Shown here one piece after another: positions 28,350 through 41,990 of a stretch of 64,000 nt of DNA. Position numbers and translations under genes: made by a program. The stretch covers positions 3,617,001 to 3,681,000 of the forward strand of contig NZ_MEHJ01000001.1 in NCBI RefSeq assembly GCF_001746415.1, written 5' to 3'. Each line of letters opens with the position of its first letter. The stretch's first letter is position 1. Source of the DNA: Streptomyces agglomeratus (GTDB lineage: Bacteria > Actinomycetota > Actinomycetes > Streptomycetales > Streptomycetaceae). The notes under the pieces are model-generated. The model searched no databases and was not told the DNA's origin. It saw nothing but the letters and a program-made list of their open reading frames with translations.

Positions 28350-29342
28350 CTACTTCGCCTCGCGCAGGTCGAGACCGATGTCGAGGATCGGGGAGGAGTG
28401 GGTGAGCGCCCCGACGGCGAGGTAGTCGACGCCCGTGTCCGCGTAGGCGCGGGCGTTCGCCAGGGTGAGGCGGCCGGAGGATTCGAGGGTCGCGCGGCCG
28501 TTCACGAGAGCCACGGCCTCGGCGGTCTGCTCCGGGGTGAAGTTGTCCAGCAGGATCAGGTCCGCCCCCGCCTCCATGACCTCCGTCACCTGGGCGAGCG
28601 TGTCGACCTCGACCTCGATCGGGACCTCGGGGAACGCCTTGCGCACGAGCTCGAACGCCTCGGCCACGCCGCCCGCCGCGACCACGTGGTTGTCCTTGAC
28701 GAGCGCCGCGTCCGAGAGGGACATGCGGTGGTTCACGCCGCCGCCGCAGCGGACCGCGAACTTCTCCAGGGCGCGCAGCCCCGGAGTCGTCTTGCGGGTG
28801 TCGCGGACCTTGGCGCCGGTGCCCTCCAGAACGTCGGCCCACGCGCGCGTGGCGGTCGCGATGCCCGACAGGCGGCAGAGCAGGTTGAGCGCGCTGCGCT
28901 CGCCGGTGAGGAGGTCGCGGGTGCGGGTGGTGACGCTGATCAGCTTCTGCCCGGCCTCGACGCGGTCGCCGTCCTCGACGTGCCGCTCGACCTCGAACTC
29001 GTCCGTACAGACGATGGACAGGACCGCCTCGGCGACGCGCAGACCCGCGACGGTGCCGGCCTCGCGCGCCGTGAAGTCACCGGTCGCGACGGCCTCCTCG
29101 GGGACCGTCGCCACGGTCGTGACGTCCACGCCGTGGGCGAGGTCCTCGGCGAGGGCGACGTTCGCGACGTCCTCCACCTCGACGGGGTCGAGCCCGGCCG
29201 CGACGAGGAGCTGGGCGAGGTCCGGGTCGAGGCTGCACTCGGCGGTGTCGAGTTCGTACGTCTCCTCACCGCCGCAGCCGCAGGCGTCGCCGCAGCCGCC
29301 GGAGGCGGTCGGCAGGAGCTGGGGGTTGTCGGGCGTACTCAC
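28350..29342 (-). CDS. nadC: Nicotinate-nucleotide pyrophosphorylase (carboxylating) NadC
   Basis: NadC (quinolinate phosphoribosyltransferase) converts quinolinate and PRPP to nicotinate mononucleotide. The 330-aa protein has the family motifs LLCRLSGIATATRAW, RKTTPGLRALEKFAVRCGG, NHRMSLSDAALVKDNH and LILLDNFTPEQ. It starts at the GTG at 29340-29342. The N-terminus has an extra segment of about 35 residues with a cysteine cluster (CGDACGCGG, Cys17, 21 and 23) before the catalytic core, longer than E. coli NadC. It follows nadB by two bases, so the two are cotranscribed; nadA, the quinolinate synthase gene, is not in this window. Confidence 0.95.
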   Translation of the reverse strand: MSTPDNPQLLPTASGGCGDACGCGGEETYELDTAECSLDPDLAQLLVAAGLDPVEVEDVANVALAEDLAHGVDVTTVATVPEEAVATGDFTAREAGTVAGLRVAEAVLSIVCTDEFEVERHVEDGDRVEAGQKLISVTTRTRDLLTGERSALNLLCRLSGIATATRAWADVLEGTGAKVRDTRKTTPGLRALEKFAVRCGGGVNHRMSLSDAALVKDNHVVAAGGVAEAFELVRKAFPEVPIEVEVDTLAQVTEVMEAGADLILLDNFTPEQTAEAVALVNGRATLESSGRLTLANARAYADTGVDYLAVGALTHSSPILDIGLDLREAK

Positions 29343-29344
29343 GG

Positions 29345-31087
29345 TTACTGCTCCCTCTGAGCTGGTACGGGGCCGGGGTTCACGGGCGGGAATGACGCGG
29401 ATTCGGTGCGGTGCACGGCGAGGGTGCGGCCGGGGGTGAGACGTACGACGAGGTGGCGGCGCCAGGCGTCGTCGTCCCGGTCCGGGTGGTCCTCGCGCCA
29501 GTGGCAGCCGCGGGTCTCCTCACGGGCGCGGGCGGCGGCGACCAGGACGCGCGAGACGAGGAGGAGGTTGGTGGCCTCCCAGGAGTCCACGCCCGGCTCG
29601 GCGTCCTTGACGTCGTGGGCGGTGTCGTCGCCGTGGGTGGCGCTCTCCTGGTCCGCCGCGTCGGCCGCACTGCGGTACAGGGCCTCCAGCGCCTGAGCGG
29701 CGTGGTCCAGGCTGGCGGCGGAACGGAGCACTCCGGCGCCCGCCGTCATGATCCGCTGGATCGTGATGCGGGTGGCCGGGTCGAGCAGCGGGCCGGGGGC
29801 CTCCGCGCTGTGCACGGCGGGGCCGGGCGAGGCGGAGTGGGCCGCGATGTCCTCGGCGATGCGTTCCGCGAAGACGAGGCCCTCCAGGAGGGAATTGGAG
29901 GCGAGCCGGTTCGCGCCGTGCACGCCCGTGCAGGCCACCTCACCGCAGGCGTAGAGCCCCGGGACCGTCGTACGGCCGTGGAGGTCCGTCCGTACGCCGC
30001 CGGACGCGTAGTGCGCCGCCGGGGCGACCGGGACGGGCTGGGTGACCGGGTCGATGCCGTGGGAGCGGCAGGCGGCCAGGATGGTGGGGAAGCGGGACTC
30101 CCACATCTCGGCGCCGAAGTGCCGGGCGTCCAGGTACATGTGCTCGGTGCCCTGCTCGCGCATCCGGCGCATGATGCCCTTGGCCACGATGTCGCGCGGG
30201 GCCAGCTCCGCCAGCTCGTGCTGCCCCAGCATGAACCGGACGCCGTCGGCGTCGACGAGGTGGGCGCCCTCGCCCCGTACGGCCTCGGAGACGAGCGGCT
30301 GCTGGCCCTCCGCGTCGGCGCCGAGGAAGAGCACCGTGGGGTGGAACTGGACGAATTCGAGGTCCGAGACCTCGGCCCCGGCGCGCAGGGCGAGCGCGAC
30401 GCCGTCACCGGTCGAGACCGACGGGTTGGTGGTGGCCGAGAAGACCTGCCCCATGCCGCCGGTCGCGAGGACGACGGCCGGGGCGCGGACGGCGCCGACG
30501 CCGTCGTGCTGTCCCTCGCCCATGACGTGCAGGGTGACCCCCGCCGTACGTCCGTCGGCGTCCGTCAGCAGGTCCAGGACCAGGGCGTTCTCGATCGTAC
30601 GCAGGGACGCCGACCGTACGGCTTCGACCAGCGCGCGGGAGATCTCCGCGCCCGTCGCGTCGCCGCCCGCGTGGGCGATGCGGCGGCGGTGGTGGCCGCC
30701 CTCGCGGGTGAGCTGGATGACGCCGGACTCGGGGTCGGTGTCGAAGAGCGCGCCGGTGTCGATCAGGCGGCGTACGGCGTCGGGGCCCTCGGTGACCAGG
30801 GCCCGTACGGCCTCCTCGTCGCACAGGCCGGCGCCCGCGACGAGCGTGTCGTCCAGGTGCTGCTCGGGGGTGTCCCCGTCGCCGAGGGCGGCGGCTATGC
30901 CGCCCTGGGCCCAGCGTGTGGAGCCGTCGTCGAGGCGGGCCTTGGTGACGACGACCGTACGCAGGCCCGCGGCGGTGCAGCGCAGGGCGGCGGTCAGGCC
31001 GGCGACGCCGGAGCCGACGACGACGACGTCGGCGTCGACGGTCCAGCCGGGGGCGGGGGCCTTCAGCCGTATACCGGTCCGGGTCAT
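29345..31087 (-). CDS. nadB: L-aspartate oxidase NadB
   Basis: NadB oxidises L-aspartate to iminoaspartate with FAD in NAD biosynthesis. The 580-aa protein has the dinucleotide-binding [13 protein letters not shown] near the N-terminus, [41 protein letters not shown] (active site region) and [20 protein letters not shown] with [22 protein letters not shown] (FAD domain). A helical C-terminal domain carries [17 protein letters not shown]. Its ATG overlaps the panC stop by four bases. Length is typical. Confidence 0.96.
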
Positions 31088-32154
31088 GCCGAAGCTCCCT
31101 GCTCGCGGACGTGCTCGTCGCCGGCGGCGCCGGTCTCGTGGACGAAGGTCAGCGGGATGTTGTCGATGAGACGTGTGGCGCCGACCCTGGCGGCCACGGC
31201 GAGGATCGCGTCGCCGCTGTAGGTGTCGGGGACCTCGGTGAAGTCGGACGGGTCGACCAGGGCGACGTAGTCGAGGGCGAGGGGCGGGTCGAAGCGGGAG
31301 GCTTCGTCCAGGACCGTGGCCGCCGCCGCGCGGACGGCCGCCGGGCCGCTCAGGCCCGCGTGCCCTGCCTGCTCGACGGCGTGCGCGTCGGCCGCGGCAC
31401 GGGCCTCGCCGATGCCCGCGAGGGCGGCCACGCGCGCGGGCGTCGTCGGCGCGCCCTGGGCCACCGCACGCGCGTGCAGGGCTTCCAGCGCGATGAGACG
31501 GTCGCGGGCGGCGAACAGGGCGCGCGAGAGGGCGAGCGCGGTGCGGCGCTCGGGGGGCGCGAGGTAGCGGTTGCGGCTGGACAGGGCCAGGCCGTCGTCC
31601 TCACGGACCGTCGGTACGCCGATGATCTCGACGGGGAAGTTCAGGTCGCGCGCCATGCGGCGGATCAGGGCGAGCTGCTGCGCGTCCTTCTGCCCGAAGA
31701 ACGCGACGTCGGGCTGCGTGAGGTGCAGCAGCTTCGCTACGACGGTGAGCATGCCGTCGAAGTGGCCGGGCCGGGACGCCCCTTCGAGGCGCTCGCCCAT
31801 CGGACCCGCGGTGATGCGGACCTGCGGTTCGCCGCCCGGGTAGACCTCGTCGGCGGACGGGGCGAACACGGCGTTCGCACCGGCTCGTTCGGCCAGGGCG
31901 AGGTCGGCGTCCAGGGTGCGCGGGTACCGGTCCAGGTCCTCGCCCGCGCCGAACTGGAGCGGGTTGACGAACACGGTGACCACGACGAACCCCTGGGGTC
32001 CGACGTGCCGGCGCGCGGTGCGGATCAGCGTCGCGTGGCCCTCGTGCAGGGCGCCCATGGTCATGACGACGGCGGTGCGGCCGGGGGCGCCGGAGTGCTC
32101 CAGCAGGTACTGGAGGTCCGCACGCGTGGGGACCGGCCCGAAGGTGCCGCTCAT
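31084..32154 (-). CDS. panC: Pantothenate synthetase PanC
   Basis: PanC joins pantoate and beta-alanine with ATP. The 356-aa protein has the adenylylation signature [15 protein letters not shown] (HxGH), [30 protein letters not shown] and [17 protein letters not shown]. Residues 200-270 carry an insertion relative to E. coli PanC, Ala/Arg-rich and apparently flexible. It overlaps the DUF2520 gene upstream and nadB downstream by four bases each, so the three are translated in a coupled manner. panB and panD are not in the window. Confidence 0.95.
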
Positions 32155-33164
32155 CGGTCTTCTCCCGTGTCCCCGTCGGTGCCGGACCCGTCGGTGCCGG
32201 GCCTGTCGGTGCCCGGCCTGTCGGTGCGTGCTCCGTCAATGCCACAACCGTCGGCCAGTACTCCGAGAAGGTCCTCGGCCAGCTCCGGCTTGAGCAGTCC
32301 GTGCGCGAGGGCGCGGTCGGCAGTCGTACGGGCCATCGCCAGGTATCCGGCGACGGCCTGCGGGGCGTGCTCGCGCAGCTCCGCGACGTGCGCGGCGACC
32401 GTTCCCGCGTCGCCGCGCGCGACCGGGCCCGTGAGGGCGGCGTCGCCGGAGCGCAGGGCGTTGTCGAGGGCGGCGCCGAGGAGTGGTCCGAGCATCCGGT
32501 CGGGCGCCTCCACACCGGCCGTGCGCAGCAGTTCCATGGACTGGGCCACCAGGGTGACCAGGTGGTTCGCGCCGAGGGCGAGGGCCGCGTGGTAGAGCGG
32601 GCGTGACTCCTCGGCGACCCACTCGGGCTCGCCGCCCATCTCGATGACCAGCGCCTCGGCGGCGAGGCGCAGCTCCTGGGGCGCGGTGACACCGAAGGAA
32701 CAGCCCGCCAGCCGCTGCACGTCGACGGACGTGCCCGTGAACGTCATGGCGGGGTGCAGGGCGAGCGGCAGCGCGCCGGCGCGCAGGGCGGGCTCCAGGA
32801 CGCGGGTTCCGTACCGCCCGGAGGTGTGCACGATGAGCTGCCCCGGCCGTACCGCGCCCGTCTCGGCGAGCCCCTCGACCAGGCCCGGCAGGGCGTCGTC
32901 GGGGACCGTCAGCAGGACCAGCTCGGCGCGGGCCAGGACTTCGGCGGGGGTGACGATCGGCACGTCGGGCAGGAGCGCGGCGGCCCTGCGTACGGACGCG
33001 TCCGAGACGCCGGACACGGCGACCGGGCGATGGCCCGCGAGCCGCAGCGCGGCGGCGAGTGCGGGGCCGACCCTGCCGGCTCCGACCACGCCGACGGTGA
33101 GGCGGGCGGGGCGGTCCCTGGCGTCCAGGGGCTCATGTGCTGCGTTTGGTGCGTTCACGTTCAC
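32151..33164 (-). CDS. Rossmann-fold/DUF2520 oxidoreductase-like protein
   Basis: This 337-aa protein has an N-terminal NAD(P)-binding fold ([20 protein letters not shown], about residues 22-40; [13 protein letters not shown]) and a C-terminal DUF2520 helical domain ([20 protein letters not shown]). The last 35 residues are a Thr/Asp/Gly/Pro repeat ([19 protein letters not shown]). The layout is that of 6-phosphogluconate or ketopantoate reductase-like enzymes. It is the first gene of the panC-nadB-nadC-coaX run, overlapping panC by four bases. Ketopantoate reductase activity is a reasonable guess from position, not from diagnostic residues. Confidence 0.85.
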
Positions 33165-35051: not shown

Positions 35052-36188
35052 ATGAGCGTGTCCATCGACATCACCGGCCTGCCGCCCGAGCGCATCGTCT
35101 TCGAGACCTCTCCCCTGGCGGAGCTCGGCATGGCCCTGCACGCCCTCGCCGAGCCCGGCCACCACCCGGGGCTGCACGGCTGGGCGACGGCGGCCGCCGC
35201 CTCGCTGAAGCCGGACCTCGCCGACCGGATGAGCGAGGCGGACTTCCTGTGGCGCAGCACGTTCTCGGACGTCTTCATGCCGTTCGCCGGCGTGCACGGC
35301 GGCGACGGCAGGACGGGCGCGACGCTCGCCGAGGACCTGGACGCGCTGGACAGGCTGGACGACGAGCGATTCGTCTCCGCCGCCCTGGAGTTCACCTGCT
35401 CCAGCATGTACGGCACCCGCAGCCCGTCCCCGCTCGTCGACTCGGCGATGCGCGAGCGCGCGCTGGACCTCGCCGCCGCGCGCGGGCCGAAGCAGACGGA
35501 CTTCGCCCGCCGTCTGCTGACCGACCCGGCGTCCGTGCGGGCCTGGCTGCGGCGCTTGTTCGAAGACTGCGACCAGGCGTTCTTCGCGGACACGTGGCGC
35601 CGTATACGGGTCCAGCTGGCCGCCGACGCGCGGCACAACGGCGAGGTGCTGCGCCGCAAGGGGCTCGCGGAGGCACTGCACGCGGTCTCCCCCGCCCTGG
35701 CCCTGAAGGAGAGCGACGGCGCGGGCGGGGGCCGGGTCCGTATCCACGCCGACAAGCTGGCCGAAGGCCGCACCAGCGCCGTGGAACCGGACGTCGGCGC
35801 CGGGCTCACCTTCGTCCCGTCGAGTTTCGGGTGGCCGCATCTGTCGGTGCTGCACGCCCCGGGCTGGCGGCCGGTGATCCACTACCCGGTCGGCGCCCCG
35901 GAACTGCCGGGCCCGGCGTCGGTCGAGCTGCTGAAGCTGCGGATGGAAGCGCTGGCCCACCCCATGCGCATGCGGATGTGCCGCAATCTGGCCCGCTCCC
36001 CGTACACAACGGGCGAGCTGGCCGAGTCGCACGGCATCACCGCGCCGGAGGTCTCACGGCACCTGACCGTCCTGCGCAAGGCCGGCCTGCTGACCACCCA
36101 GCGCCGCGGCCGCTACGTCCTGCACAGCCTGGACCTTCAGGTGGTGGCCCGGCTGGGCAGCGACTTCCTGGAGGGCGTGCTGCGCTAG
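35052..36188 (+). CDS. DUF5937 / ArsR-like winged-helix transcriptional regulator
   Basis: This 378-aa protein has an N-terminal DUF5937-type domain (about residues 1-260: VSIDITGLPPERIVFETSPL, LAELGMALHALAEPG) and a C-terminal ArsR-like winged helix (about 290-375: ALAHPMRMRMCRNLA, ELAESHGITAPEVSRHLTVL, TTQRRGRYVLHSLD). The family is common in streptomycetes and usually acts as a local repressor. No metal-binding cysteine motif of classical ArsR proteins is seen. Its stop lies four bases from the convergent nuoD2 stop. Confidence 0.8.
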   Translation: MSVSIDITGLPPERIVFETSPLAELGMALHALAEPGHHPGLHGWATAAAASLKPDLADRMSEADFLWRSTFSDVFMPFAGVHGGDGRTGATLAEDLDALDRLDDERFVSAALEFTCSSMYGTRSPSPLVDSAMRERALDLAAARGPKQTDFARRLLTDPASVRAWLRRLFEDCDQAFFADTWRRIRVQLAADARHNGEVLRRKGLAEALHAVSPALALKESDGAGGGRVRIHADKLAEGRTSAVEPDVGAGLTFVPSSFGWPHLSVLHAPGWRPVIHYPVGAPELPGPASVELLKLRMEALAHPMRMRMCRNLARSPYTTGELAESHGITAPEVSRHLTVLRKAGLLTTQRRGRYVLHSLDLQVVARLGSDFLEGVLR

Positions 36189-36192
36189 CCGG

Positions 36193-37335
36193 TCACTTGT
36201 CGATGTCGCCGACGACGAAGAACAGCGACCCGAGGATCGCCACCATGTCGGCGACGAGCGTTCCCGGGAGCAGTTCCACCAGCGCCTGGATGTTGTTGAA
36301 GGACGCCGAACGCAGCTTCAGGCGGTACGGCGTCTTCTCGCCCTTCGAGACGAGGTAGTAGCCGTTGATGCCCAGCGGGTTCTCGGTCCAGGCGTAGGTG
36401 TGGCCCTCCGGGGCCTTCAGCACCTTCGGCAGCCGCTGGTTGATCGGGCCTGGCGCGAGGTCGGCCATCCGCTCCAGGCAGGCGTCCGCGAGGTCCAGCG
36501 CGTTGTGCGTCTGGTCGAGCAGGATCTCGAAGCGGGCGAGGCAGTCGCCCTCGGCCCTGGTGGCGACCTTGAGGGTGTCCTGGAGTTCGCCGTACGCGAG
36601 GTACGGCTCGTCGCGCCGCAGGTCGAAGTCGACCCCGGAGGCGCGGGCGATGGGGCCGCTCACCCCGTACGCGTGCACGGCCTCGCGGGACAGGATGCCG
36701 ACGCCGCGCGTGCGGCCGCGGAAGATCTCGTTGCCGGTGACCAGGTCGTCGTACACGTCCATCCGGGACCGTACGTCGGCGACGGCCTCGCGTGCGCGGC
36801 CGAGCCAGCCGGCGGGGAGGTCCTCCTTGAGGCCGCCGACCCGGTTGAACATGTAGTGCATGCGGCCGCCGGAGACCTCCTCCATGACGGCCTGGAGCTC
36901 CTCGCGCTCGCGGAACGCGTAGAAGACGGGGGTGATTCCGCCCAGTTCGAGCGGGTACGAACCGAGGAACATGAGGTGGTTCAGGACGCGGTTCAGCTCG
37001 GCGAGGAGCGTACGGGTCCAGACGGCGCGCTCGGGGACCTCCATGCCGAGCATGCGCTCGACGGCCATGACGACGCCCAGCTCGTTGGAGAACGCGGACA
37101 GCCAGTCGTGGCGGTTCGCGAGCATCACGATCTGGCGGTAGTCGCGGGCCTCGAAGAGCTTCTCGGCGCCGCGGTGCATGTAGCCGATGACCGGCTCCGC
37201 GTGCTGGATGCGTTCGCCGTCGAGCACGAGCCTGAGGCGGAGGACGCCGTGCGTGGAGGGATGCTGGGGGCCGATGTTGAGCACCATGTCGGTGCTCTCC
37301 GCCGCGCCGCCGATGCCGACCGTGGTCTCCGTCAT
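36193..37335 (-). CDS. nuoD2: Orphan NADH-quinone oxidoreductase subunit D (NuoD2)
   Basis: NuoD (49-kDa subunit) forms the quinone pocket of complex I. This 380-aa protein has the hallmarks [57 protein letters not shown] and [10 protein letters not shown]. No other nuo gene is nearby, so it is an orphan paralogue. His29 of the quinone-site loop (Thermus His38) is kept. The quinone-binding Tyr (Thermus Tyr87) is replaced by Trp78 (RHDWLSAF), and the partner Asp139 by Glu130 (PLELGG). Arg55 of the HRGAEKL motif matches the arginine methylated in human NDUFS2. Upstream, on the same strand, a MidA-type methyltransferase gene is separated only by a repeat array. Confidence 0.92.
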
Positions 37336-37885
37336 GCGGCCAGTATCCCCCCGCCGGGATCGCCGCCGGTGAGCGGGTGCGGGGCTTCGTGTGGGGGCGG
37401 GGGCTTCGGGGCGGGACTGCGGGGTCGGTGCCGCGTCGGGGCGTCTCCTCGGGTGCCGAACCTTCGGGCAGCGCTGCGGTGTGTGCAGGGTGCTTGCGTT
37501 CGACACCCTGCGGGGAGCGCCCCGACACGGCCCCTCCCGGCACCGCCGAATGCGTCGCGGGGGCTCCGGGCGGGGGACTCGGGGTCGGTGCCGCGCCGGG
37601 GCGTCTCCTCGGGTGCCGAACCTTCGGGCAGCGCTGCGGTGTGTACGGGCCCGTTGCGTTCGGCGCCCTGCGGGGAGCGCCCCGACACGGCCCCTCCCGG
37701 CACCGCCGAATGCGTCGCGGGGGCTCCGGGCGGGGGGCTTCGGGGTCGGTGCCGCGCCGGGGCGTCTCCTCGGGTGCCGAACCTTCGGGCAGCGCTGCGG
37801 TGTGTACGGGCCCGTTGCGTTCGACACCCTGCGGGGAGCGCCCCGGCACGGCCCCTGCCGGCACTCCGGGAGGTGCGGGGAGGCT
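37336..37885. other. Intergenic stretch with tandem repeats, upstream of nuoD2
   Basis: This 550-bp gap lies between nuoD2 and the MidA-type methyltransferase gene. The part from 37421 to about 37870 is the 160-bp repeat array. Positions 37336-37420 are simple G-rich sequence on the plus strand. The open frames crossing the repeats in all directions are a base-composition effect: they carry no domain and repeat with the DNA. Confidence 0.6.
37421..37870. repeat. Three tandem copies of a ~160-bp unit
   Basis: Copies start at 37421, 37581 and 37742 (periods 160 and 161), each opening GGGGTCGGTGCCGCG; the third is truncated near 37870. Each unit contains the hairpin CCGAACCTTCGG and the perfect palindrome GCAGCGCTGC. 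The copies differ mainly in the segment after GTGTGT, where copy 1 has CAGGGTGCTTG and the others ACGGGCCCGTTG. Confidence 0.9.
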
Positions 37886-38869
37886 TCAGGCGGGCAGTGG
37901 GACGGGTTGTCTCAGCCAGGTGAAGTCGCCGAGGCCGCCGCGGGCCGTCAGTTCCGCCGCCTCGCCCGCTCCGGAGAGGGCCCGTACGTACGCGGCCGGG
38001 TCCTTCGTCGCCAGGGCCAGCGGCGGGCGGGCCGCGGTCACGCCCAGGCGGTGCAGTGCCTCGCGCTGCGACAGCAGCTCCGCGCCCGGCAGCGCGCACG
38101 CGTCCAGGGCGACGTGGGAGGTGATGTCACAGGTGCCGTCGGGGACCGGGCGTACCTCCCGGCCCGCCCGGAAGCCGGTCAGCGTGCCGAACGGGGGGCG
38201 CGCCGTCCGCTCGTGGGCGTAGTCCACCGCGACCGCCAGGCCCGCGTCGAGCGTCGCGACGGCCGCGGCCCACGCCGCGTCGCGCGGGCGGCCGATCTCG
38301 GCCCGCAACCCGGGCCCGGCGTCCGGCGGCAGCGGCCACCAGCGCGCGAGCCAGTCCGCGTCCGGCCCGGTCACCGGGTCGCCCAGGCGCTCCTCGCCGT
38401 CCCGGGGGCGGACGAGGACGTAGCGGGCGACACCCGCCGCGTCGGTCTCGGCGACGTCCACCGGGACGTTGTCCAGCCACTCGTTCGCGAACAGCAGCCC
38501 GGTGACGCCCGGCGGCGGCTCCGTGAGCCACTCGATGCGGTGATCCAGTCCGGCCGGCCGGGGCGCGCGCTCAACGCCGTACGCCCGCACGCGCGCCGAC
38601 AGCTCCGGAGCCAGCGCCGCGAGTACGGCCGCCAGCAGCTCGCCCAGCCCCGCGCCCACGTCGACCAGCGCCAGCTCCCGCGGCTGCTCCAGCGACGCGT
38701 CGACCTCCGCGAGCAGCCGCGCGACCGCCCCGGCGTAGAGCGCGGACGCGTGCACCGATGTACGGAAATGACCGGACGGGCCCGGTCCGCCGGGGCGTAC
38801 GTAGAAACCCCCCGGACCGTACAGCGCCTGCTGAGCCGCTTCCCGCCACCCGTCCCACTCATCCGTCAC
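37886..38869 (-). CDS. MidA/NDUFAF7-family SAM-dependent methyltransferase
   Basis: This 327-aa class I methyltransferase is of the MidA (mitochondrial NDUFAF7) family. Family marks are PGGFYVRPG and [10 protein letters not shown] near the N-terminus, the SAM loop [16 protein letters not shown] (about 83-98), [15 protein letters not shown] (the conserved NExxD segment), [10 protein letters not shown], and [12 protein letters not shown] near the C-terminus. NDUFAF7 dimethylates an arginine of NDUFS2, the human NuoD. Here the gene lies upstream of nuoD2 on the same strand. The GTG at 38867-38869 gives the family start ([10 protein letters not shown]). Co-transcription with nuoD2 is plausible across the repeat array. 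Confidence 0.9.
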
Positions 38870-40914: not shown

Positions 40915-41985
40915 TGTATTGCCCCGGGAGGTTGTGTACGGGTGATGCAGCTCTAGGCTGAGGGATCTTGAACGAGTAAGGGCCTTCCGGGTTCGGTGTG
41001 GATTGCGACATCTCCACCGAACGACGAAAGGCCCTCATGCCCCACCGTAATGCACCCCTGACCGAGACCGGACGACTGCGGCTCGCCCGCTGCGTGGTCG
41101 AGGACGGATGGCCCCTGCGCCGGGCCGCCGAACGCTTCCAGGTCTCGACAACCACCGCCCAGCGGTGGGCCGGCCGCTACCGAGTTCTGGGCGAGGCCGG
41201 GATGGCGGACCTTTCCTCCCGCCCGCATCACAGCCCCCGGCGAACCCCGACCCGCACCGAACGCCGGATCATCAAGGTGCGCCTCCTGCGTCGCTGGGGA
41301 CCGGCCCGGATCGCTCACCTGCTCGGCCTGGTCCCCTCGACCGTGCACCGTGTCCTGACCCGCTTCAAACTGGCCCGCCTGACCCACCTGGACCGGGCCA
41401 CCGGCCGGGCAGTGCGCCGCTACGAACGCTCCACACCAGGCGAGTTGGTACACGTGGACATCAAGAAACTCGGCAACATCCCCGATGGCGGAGGCCACAA
41501 GGCGCTCGGCCGCCAGGCCGGCCGCAAGACACGGTCCGGCGCCGGCTACAGCTACATCCACACCGCCGTAGACGACCACTCCCGCCTCGCCTACAGCGAG
41601 ATCCACGACGACGAGAAGAAGGAAACCGCGACCGCCTTCTGGACCCGGGCGAACGCGTTCTTCACCACCGCCGGGATCACCGTCGAGCGCGTCCTGACCG
41701 ACAACGGCTCCTGCTACCGCTCACGCGACTGGCACGATGCCCTGGCGGCGGCCGGGATCGCCCACAAGCGAACCCGGCCCTACCGGCCGCAGACCAACGG
41801 CAAGGTCGAACGCCTCAACCGCACCCTGCTCGACGAATGGGCCTACGCCCGCCCCTACCGATCAGAACAAGAACGACGCGACGCCTTCCCACACTGGCTC
41901 CACACCTACAATCACCACCGCGGACACACCGCGCTCGCAGGCAAACCACCCGCCAGCCGCGTCCCCAACCTCACAGGGCAATACA
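40915..41985 (+). mobile_element. IS481-family insertion sequence (1071 bp)
   Basis: The element runs TGT...ACA with terminal inverted repeats: left TGTATTGCCCCGGGAGGTTG at 40915, right (reverse complement) TGTATTGCCCTGTGAGGTTG ending at 41985, agreeing at 18 of 20 positions. It is flanked by the 6-bp duplication GCTAGG. It carries one transposase gene that fills most of the element. The intact repeats, frame and duplication suggest a recent and probably mobile copy. Confidence 0.93.
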
Positions 41986-41990
41986 GCTAG
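41037..41990 (+). CDS. IS481 family transposase
   Basis: This 317-aa DDE transposase starts at the ATG at 41037 (MPHRNAPLTETGRLRLARCV). An N-terminal HTH (PLRRAAERFQVSTTTAQRWA, about residues 22-42) is followed by the integrase core with the catalytic triad: Asp in ELVHVDIKKLG, Asp in VLTDNGSCYRS and Glu in NGKVERLNRTL. The last sense codon (AGC) starts in the target duplication, and the stop TAG at 41988-41990 is supplied wholly by target DNA outside the right inverted repeat. This is known for IS481 elements that insert at NCTAGN. Confidence 0.95.
   Translation: MPHRNAPLTETGRLRLARCVVEDGWPLRRAAERFQVSTTTAQRWAGRYRVLGEAGMADLSSRPHHSPRRTPTRTERRIIKVRLLRRWGPARIAHLLGLVPSTVHRVLTRFKLARLTHLDRATGRAVRRYERSTPGELVHVDIKKLGNIPDGGGHKALGRQAGRKTRSGAGYSYIHTAVDDHSRLAYSEIHDDEKKETATAFWTRANAFFTTAGITVERVLTDNGSCYRSRDWHDALAAAGIAHKRTRPYRPQTNGKVERLNRTLLDEWAYARPYRSEQERRDAFPHWLHTYNHHRGHTALAGKPPASRVPNLTGQYS

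Follow-up and report, generated by a model that had tools for sequence, protein, structure and literature searches.

A NuoD paralogue encoded beside a MidA-type methyltransferase probably completes a second complex I of Streptomyces and many related bacteria

Why does a Streptomyces genome encode a second NuoD, the 49-kDa subunit of complex I, apart from its nuo operons and beside a gene for a methyltransferase of the MidA/NDUFAF7 type? We addressed this question for a locus of Streptomyces agglomeratus lying in a stretch of 64,000 nucleotides that was analysed as a whole and is called the window here (Table 1). Our analysis suggests that this NuoD2 is probably the D subunit of a second, 11-subunit complex I without an NADH module (NuoA2, B2, C2, D2, and H2–N2), that its Arg55 at cluster N2 is most likely dimethylated by the neighbouring MidA, and that several lineages keep only NuoB2, C2, D2, and I2 together with MidA.

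Table 1. Coordinates of the features of the midA–nuoD2 locus (positions in the window).
Feature	Position	Strand	Remark
MidA/NDUFAF7-type SAM methyltransferase gene (midA)	37886..38869	-	327 aa from GTG 38869
160-bp repeat, 2.9 copies, between midA and nuoD2	37397..37864	.	dispersed family of this genome
nuoD2, NuoD/49-kDa subunit paralogue	36193..37335	-	ATG 37335, stop ends 36193, 380 aa
His29 codon of nuoD2 (= Thermus Nqo4 His38)	37249..37251	-	counted from ATG 37335
Arg55 codon of nuoD2, HRGAEK motif (= Nqo4 Thr64)	37171..37173	-	candidate methylation site
Trp78 codon of nuoD2 (= Nqo4 Tyr87)	37102..37104	-	
Glu130 codon of nuoD2 (= Nqo4 Asp139)	36946..36948	-	canonical NuoD likewise Glu

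NuoD2 matches PF00346 (Complex1_49kDa) over its full length with 239 bits (cut-off 24) and NCBIfam NF004739 with 379 bits (cut-off 360), and lies under the cut-offs of TIGR01962 (388 versus 459) and of the Bacillus-type NF008974 (408 versus 522). Solved complex I structures align with it, and the best 120 protein matches listed comprised only Streptomyces-like neighbours. Residues were placed against Thermus Nqo4 (2fug_4) with a query carrying three extra residues, so that the printed alignment numbers run 3 higher; the alignment bore out the original prediction in all four residues, His29, Arg55, Trp78, and Glu130, and in its Thermus numbering.

The same residues were then read in the relatives of NuoD2, leaving aside matches shorter than 500 bases (250 bases for NuoB). 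Arg55 and Trp78 were each invariant, in 148/148 genomes and records as well as in 19/19 further divergent copies, and the quinone Tyr of Nqo4 (Tyr87) was absent throughout; His29 was conserved in 149/151 loci and in 13/19 more divergent loci. The 148 sequences comprise 80 named records and 68 genomes, between which species may overlap, and genome G097, whose NuoD2 is split across frames, was excluded from this count and from the NuoD2 tree. In Thermus, quinone is bound by Tyr87 and His38, and His38 pairs with Asp139 (PMC7434922). The suggestion that NuoD2 has lost its quinone residues holds for the change from Tyr to Trp, which is particular to NuoD2, but His29 is kept, and Glu130 was rejected as a lost quinone residue because canonical actinobacterial NuoD likewise carries Glu there (64/64 loci read). 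In Thermus the Tyr at this place forms a hydrogen bond with quinone (PMC7434922); since NuoD2 has Trp78 instead, its reduction of quinone is not assured, and the quinone site may be altered.

MidA matches PF02636 (Methyltransf_28) with 64.3 bits (cut-off 23.3) and the DUF185 structure 1zkd with an E-value of 5e-8, and its length equals that of its closest database relative among the matches listed (annotated relatives of 327 aa). Two blocks align with 1zkd, which we take to be the glycine-rich SAM motif and the NE(Y/W)-x-D block. As originally described, midA lies upstream of nuoD2 on the same strand with a gap of 550 bp. Most of this gap is filled by a 160-bp repeat whose family has at least 30 matches in the genome (best 40 of 153 candidates scored). 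Each repeat unit can form a long hairpin (z -2.3). No exact 36-base match to the repeat was found in any of the relatives' loci, and the repeat is probably unrelated to the function of the gene pair. A promoter and terminator scan across the midA–nuoD2 region found nothing. A gene for a DUF5937 plus ArsR-type regulator (window 35052–36188) is convergent with nuoD2, the two ends being 4 bases apart; a 330-aa frame at window 40998–41990 resembles, by eye, an insertion-sequence transposase; and a nadC-nadB-panC-DUF2520 block near the pair (window 28350–33164; loci L118–L157) is conserved in many families of the class.

The genome holds exactly two NuoD, of which the canonical one sits in a nuoA–N cluster (L087). 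A second cluster, nuo2 (L086), lies about 35–40 kb from the canonical cluster and about 0.18 Mb from nuoD2 on the same chromosome; it encodes NuoA2, B2, C2, H2, I2, J2, K2, L2, M2, and N2, and carries no D, E, F, or G. NuoA2, C2, H2, I2, L2, and M2 were assigned by Pfam, NuoB2 against solved structures, and NuoJ2, K2, and N2 by position and similarity. Compared with the known 11-subunit type, this gene list lacks D alone. With D supplied from the window, the set A, B, C, D, and H–N is complete in the genome and E, F, and G are absent from it; the FeS ligands of N2, N6a, and N6b are present. The nuo2 operon and a separate nuoD2 have already been named in Streptomyces (PMC3765725, PMC8388888). 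Elsewhere nuo2 was said to lack NuoCDEFG and L, with unclear function (PMC9239103); unlike in that description, as far as its available text goes, C2 and L2 are present in the nuo2 of this genome.

The same division of genes recurs in relatives. None of 26/26 nuo2 stretches, several of which end at contig or stretch ends, has a D gene inside the operon. We searched the same 296 genomes of the class for NuoD2, NuoH2, MidA, and PF02636, counting NuoH2 as present at E < 1e-75 and MidA as present when either the MidA or the PF02636 search found it; 267 genomes were of good quality, in classes drawn from lists with rounded completeness values. Of these 267, 60 have both NuoH2 and NuoD2, 40 have NuoD2 but not NuoH2, none has NuoH2 without NuoD2, and 167 have neither. 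NuoD2 as a stray paralogue was rejected, since the nuo2 set misses only D and NuoH2 never occurs without NuoD2. The original proposal that NuoD2 may work outside complex I does not stand as worded, because NuoD2 accompanies this set; a membrane-less setting does exist in other lineages, as described below.

MidA follows the same distribution. It was present in 60/60 good-quality genomes with both NuoD2 and NuoH2, in 31/40 with NuoD2 and no NuoH2, and in 3/167 without NuoD2, two of the last three (G078 and G166) being weak single-sequence matches. Over all 296 genomes, NuoD2 was found in 116, spread over 30 of the 46 family codes of the sample, and 104 of the 116 have MidA; MidA without NuoD2 was found in 7, of which 4 are less than 85% complete. 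The sampled genomes are related, so these counts are not independent and the Fisher value overstates the evidence. At the level of loci, MidA lies within about 5 kb of NuoD2 in 73/80 Streptomycetaceae loci: 40 on the same strand and upstream, 23 convergent, and 10 divergent; one locus with full flanks (L078) showed no MidA. In other families it was found in 35/40 loci, always upstream on the strand of NuoD2, often several kb off and mostly near DUF2520, panC, nadB, and coaX genes. In genome G022 the two genes overlap by 4 bases, and nuoN2 is convergent on both. Thus, the pairing that had been predicted from one locus is widespread, and MidA tracks the Arg-bearing NuoD2 across the 296 genomes, but the operon-like order is variable, with opposite strands in 33/73 Streptomycetaceae loci and distances of up to several kb.

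This variability bears on an alternative that we consider unlikely, namely that the linkage reflects the intact inheritance of the DUF2520-panC-nadB-coaX side of the chromosome and that MidA modifies something else. Conservation of this neighbourhood extends to many of the 40 non-Streptomyces loci, the orientation and distance of the pair vary, and nine good-quality genomes have NuoD2 with no MidA detected. Against this, MidA tracks NuoD2 rather than the neighbourhood, if the relatedness of the genomes is kept in mind; it is the sole PF02636 protein in the genome of the window; and the one demonstrated target of the family, Arg85 of human NDUFS2 modified by NDUFAF7, is the equivalent Arg (PMC3829151). 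In the nine genomes Arg55 is kept, and it persists in the most divergent NuoD2 copies even where MidA is missing. Escherichia coli has the equivalent Arg without dimethylation (PMC8042128), so that the Arg does not require MidA. Among 14 named control genomes, PF02636 was present in Caulobacter, Synechococcus, and Haloferax and absent from E. coli and Thermus. The comparison favours MidA and NuoD2 as a likely enzyme–substrate pair, as originally proposed, on the strength of their co-occurrence and of the Thr that canonical NuoD carries at the site. The claim of novelty for bacteria was overstated, because dimethylation of the equivalent Arg has been reported in Paracoccus denitrificans (PMC8042128).

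NuoB was sought in 28 genomes that have NuoD2 and no NuoH2. A contiguous NuoB2-C2-I2 trio with no nuo2 membrane gene alongside was found in 22 of them; of the remaining six, G161 has the trio with an insertion, G016, G070, and G229 are cut by contig ends, G030 is degenerate, and in G190 it was not found. Of the 40 good-quality genomes of this class, 27 were read: 21 have contiguous trios, and the other 6 are those just listed. G070, which keeps A2 and has C2 at a contig end, probably belongs to the full type, its contig being broken. A search for the NuoH family gave a single strong match per genome in all 28, five of which showed weak additional matches; eight full-type control genomes gave two strong matches each. 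The trio occupies the place of nuo2, between korAB and htpX/yajQ where the stretch includes them. In G161 (L269, 10900–15000), other genes fill the 4 kb between nuoC2 and nuoI2, which is the nuoH2 position of the full type.

The NuoB2-C2-I2 tree implies three changes between the types and, with starred support, nests G161 and G030 in full-type clades. When canonical NuoD is used to root the NuoD2 tree, the full type falls within the membrane-less type, which speaks against simple loss, but long branches make this root unsafe. Thus, loss of the membrane genes is shown for G161 and G030 only, by their nesting and by a NuoH2 remnant in G030.

The membrane-less genes might be decaying leftovers without function, a reading to which we give perhaps one chance in a handful. 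It would fit the long branches of this type, the remnant in G030 together with the lack of a NuoC2 match there, and the decay of the NuoD2 loop at residues 127–143, which is invariant in 30 full-type copies and decays in 21 membrane-less ones; Glu130 within it is invariant in 30/30 of the former versus 5/21 of the latter. However, both CxxCxxCxxxC motifs are intact in all 50 NuoI2 copies checked, the four Cys of NuoB2 are kept in 41/44 loci, the other three being loci that the alignment does not resolve, and open frames are intact across many family codes. Arg55 and Trp78 do not vary, and residues 54–78 of NuoD2 hardly vary in either type. The region of NuoD2 next to N2, with the presumed methylation site, is thus kept without a membrane arm. 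We tentatively propose, at somewhat less than even confidence, that a Q-module of NuoB2, C2, D2, and I2 has been cut loose from the membrane arm in many Actinobacteria and acts independently or plugs into another partner, MidA still maturing N2 at Arg55. If so, methylation would serve N2 itself rather than quinone chemistry or attachment of the membrane arm.

The residues around N2 also indicate which subunits would belong together. The HRGxE motif of Yarrowia has its Arg121 near N2, and this residue is dimethylated, while Thermus has Thr at that place and an Arg of NuoB (Nqo6 Arg83) occupies the same space (PMC8042128). Canonical NuoB Arg75 aligns with Nqo6 Arg83, and NuoB2 carries Thr, as NDUFS7 does at the same place. 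Canonical NuoD has Thr at the Arg55 place and Tyr at the Trp78 place in 52/52 genomes, and canonical NuoB has Arg in 52/52, which is the Thermus pattern; NuoB2 has Thr in 43/43 genomes, facing Arg in 148/148 NuoD2, which is the Yarrowia pattern. These counts leave aside one NuoB-like copy of the genome of the window, whose site the alignment does not resolve. Genome G203 has an additional NuoB-like copy with Ala at the switch site. Such a pattern would follow from NuoD2 being paired with NuoB2, and canonical NuoD with its own NuoB. That NuoD2 is instead an alternative D subunit swapping into canonical complex I is very improbable: 40 good-quality genomes do have NuoD2 without NuoH2 and with canonical Nuo, and for Streptomyces coelicolor a complex mixing nuo and nuo2 products has been suggested (PMC9239103), but the swap would set the Arg of NuoD2 against that of canonical NuoB at N2, 22/28 such genomes examined have the NuoB2-C2-I2 set, and no good-quality genome has NuoH2 while lacking NuoD2.

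For the second complex I, with NuoD2 as its probable D subunit, the observed gene content, co-occurrence, residue covariation, and conserved FeS ligands lead us to infer how it might assemble and work. A MidA-type enzyme would dimethylate Arg55 of NuoD2 during assembly, and this Arg would shield the terminal cluster N2, as in mitochondria. No methylation would be needed in the cell's canonical complex I, because there the N2 arginine comes from NuoB. Electrons from a soluble donor, perhaps ferredoxin, would enter NuoI2 and then reach N2 between NuoB2 and NuoD2; in the full type, menaquinone would be reduced while the membrane arm pumps. KorAB adjoins nuo2 in this genome, and KorA/KorB genes stand beside nuo2 or the trio in 27/46 stretches (12/26 full, 15/20 membrane-less), many of which end early. 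KorAB as a NuoD2-specific partner was weakened as a candidate by the presence of KorB in 229/296 genomes, including those without NuoD2, and this wide occurrence makes the adjacency weak evidence for the electron donor. In genome G022, a NuoF-like frame (L202, 8355–9533; 40% to canonical NuoF) lies just past nuoA2, divergent from nuo2, and could be a private electron-input subunit.

Our results give the orphan nuoD2 a probable home and suggest that Streptomyces and many of its relatives have a second complex I with all its subunits. Each such cell would hold both natural solutions for the N2 arginine, one MidA-dependent and one not, so that a single organism would suffice to test genetically whether methylation acts in assembly or in redox tuning; in the membrane-less sets, methylation would be uncoupled from both the membrane arm and quinone binding. 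Among the matches listed in the open-access literature, we found no prior description of the NuoD2–MidA pairing, of an Arg/Thr switch between two complexes of the same cell, or of membrane-less NuoBCDI sets.

This study also places the second complex I among known systems. The published accounts of Streptomyces (PMC3765725, PMC8388888, PMC9239103) have the nuo2 operon and separate nuoD2 in common with ours; in their available text they list neither NuoC2 nor a methyltransferase, and both are found here. Haloarchaeal Nuo likewise has no NuoEFG, and 2-oxoacid:ferredoxin oxidoreductases (KorAB) were proposed as its source of electrons (PMC8305020); in contrast, the korAB link here comes from gene neighbourhood only. 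By our profile search, Haloferax also has PF02636. The 11-subunit complex I of Desulfitobacterium hafniense (PMC11238625) has the same subunit list without NuoE, F, and G, and its donor is likewise left open in the available text; here, the D gene lies outside the operon and next to the MidA gene, a canonical 14-subunit complex coexists, Trp stands at the place of Tyr87, and there are membrane-less relatives. With human NDUFAF7 and Arg85 of NDUFS2 (PMC3829151), the actinobacterial system shares the Methyltransf_28 enzyme and the HRGxEK motif, and it differs in being a bacterial pair with a putative methylation, kept in part of the lineages without any membrane arm.
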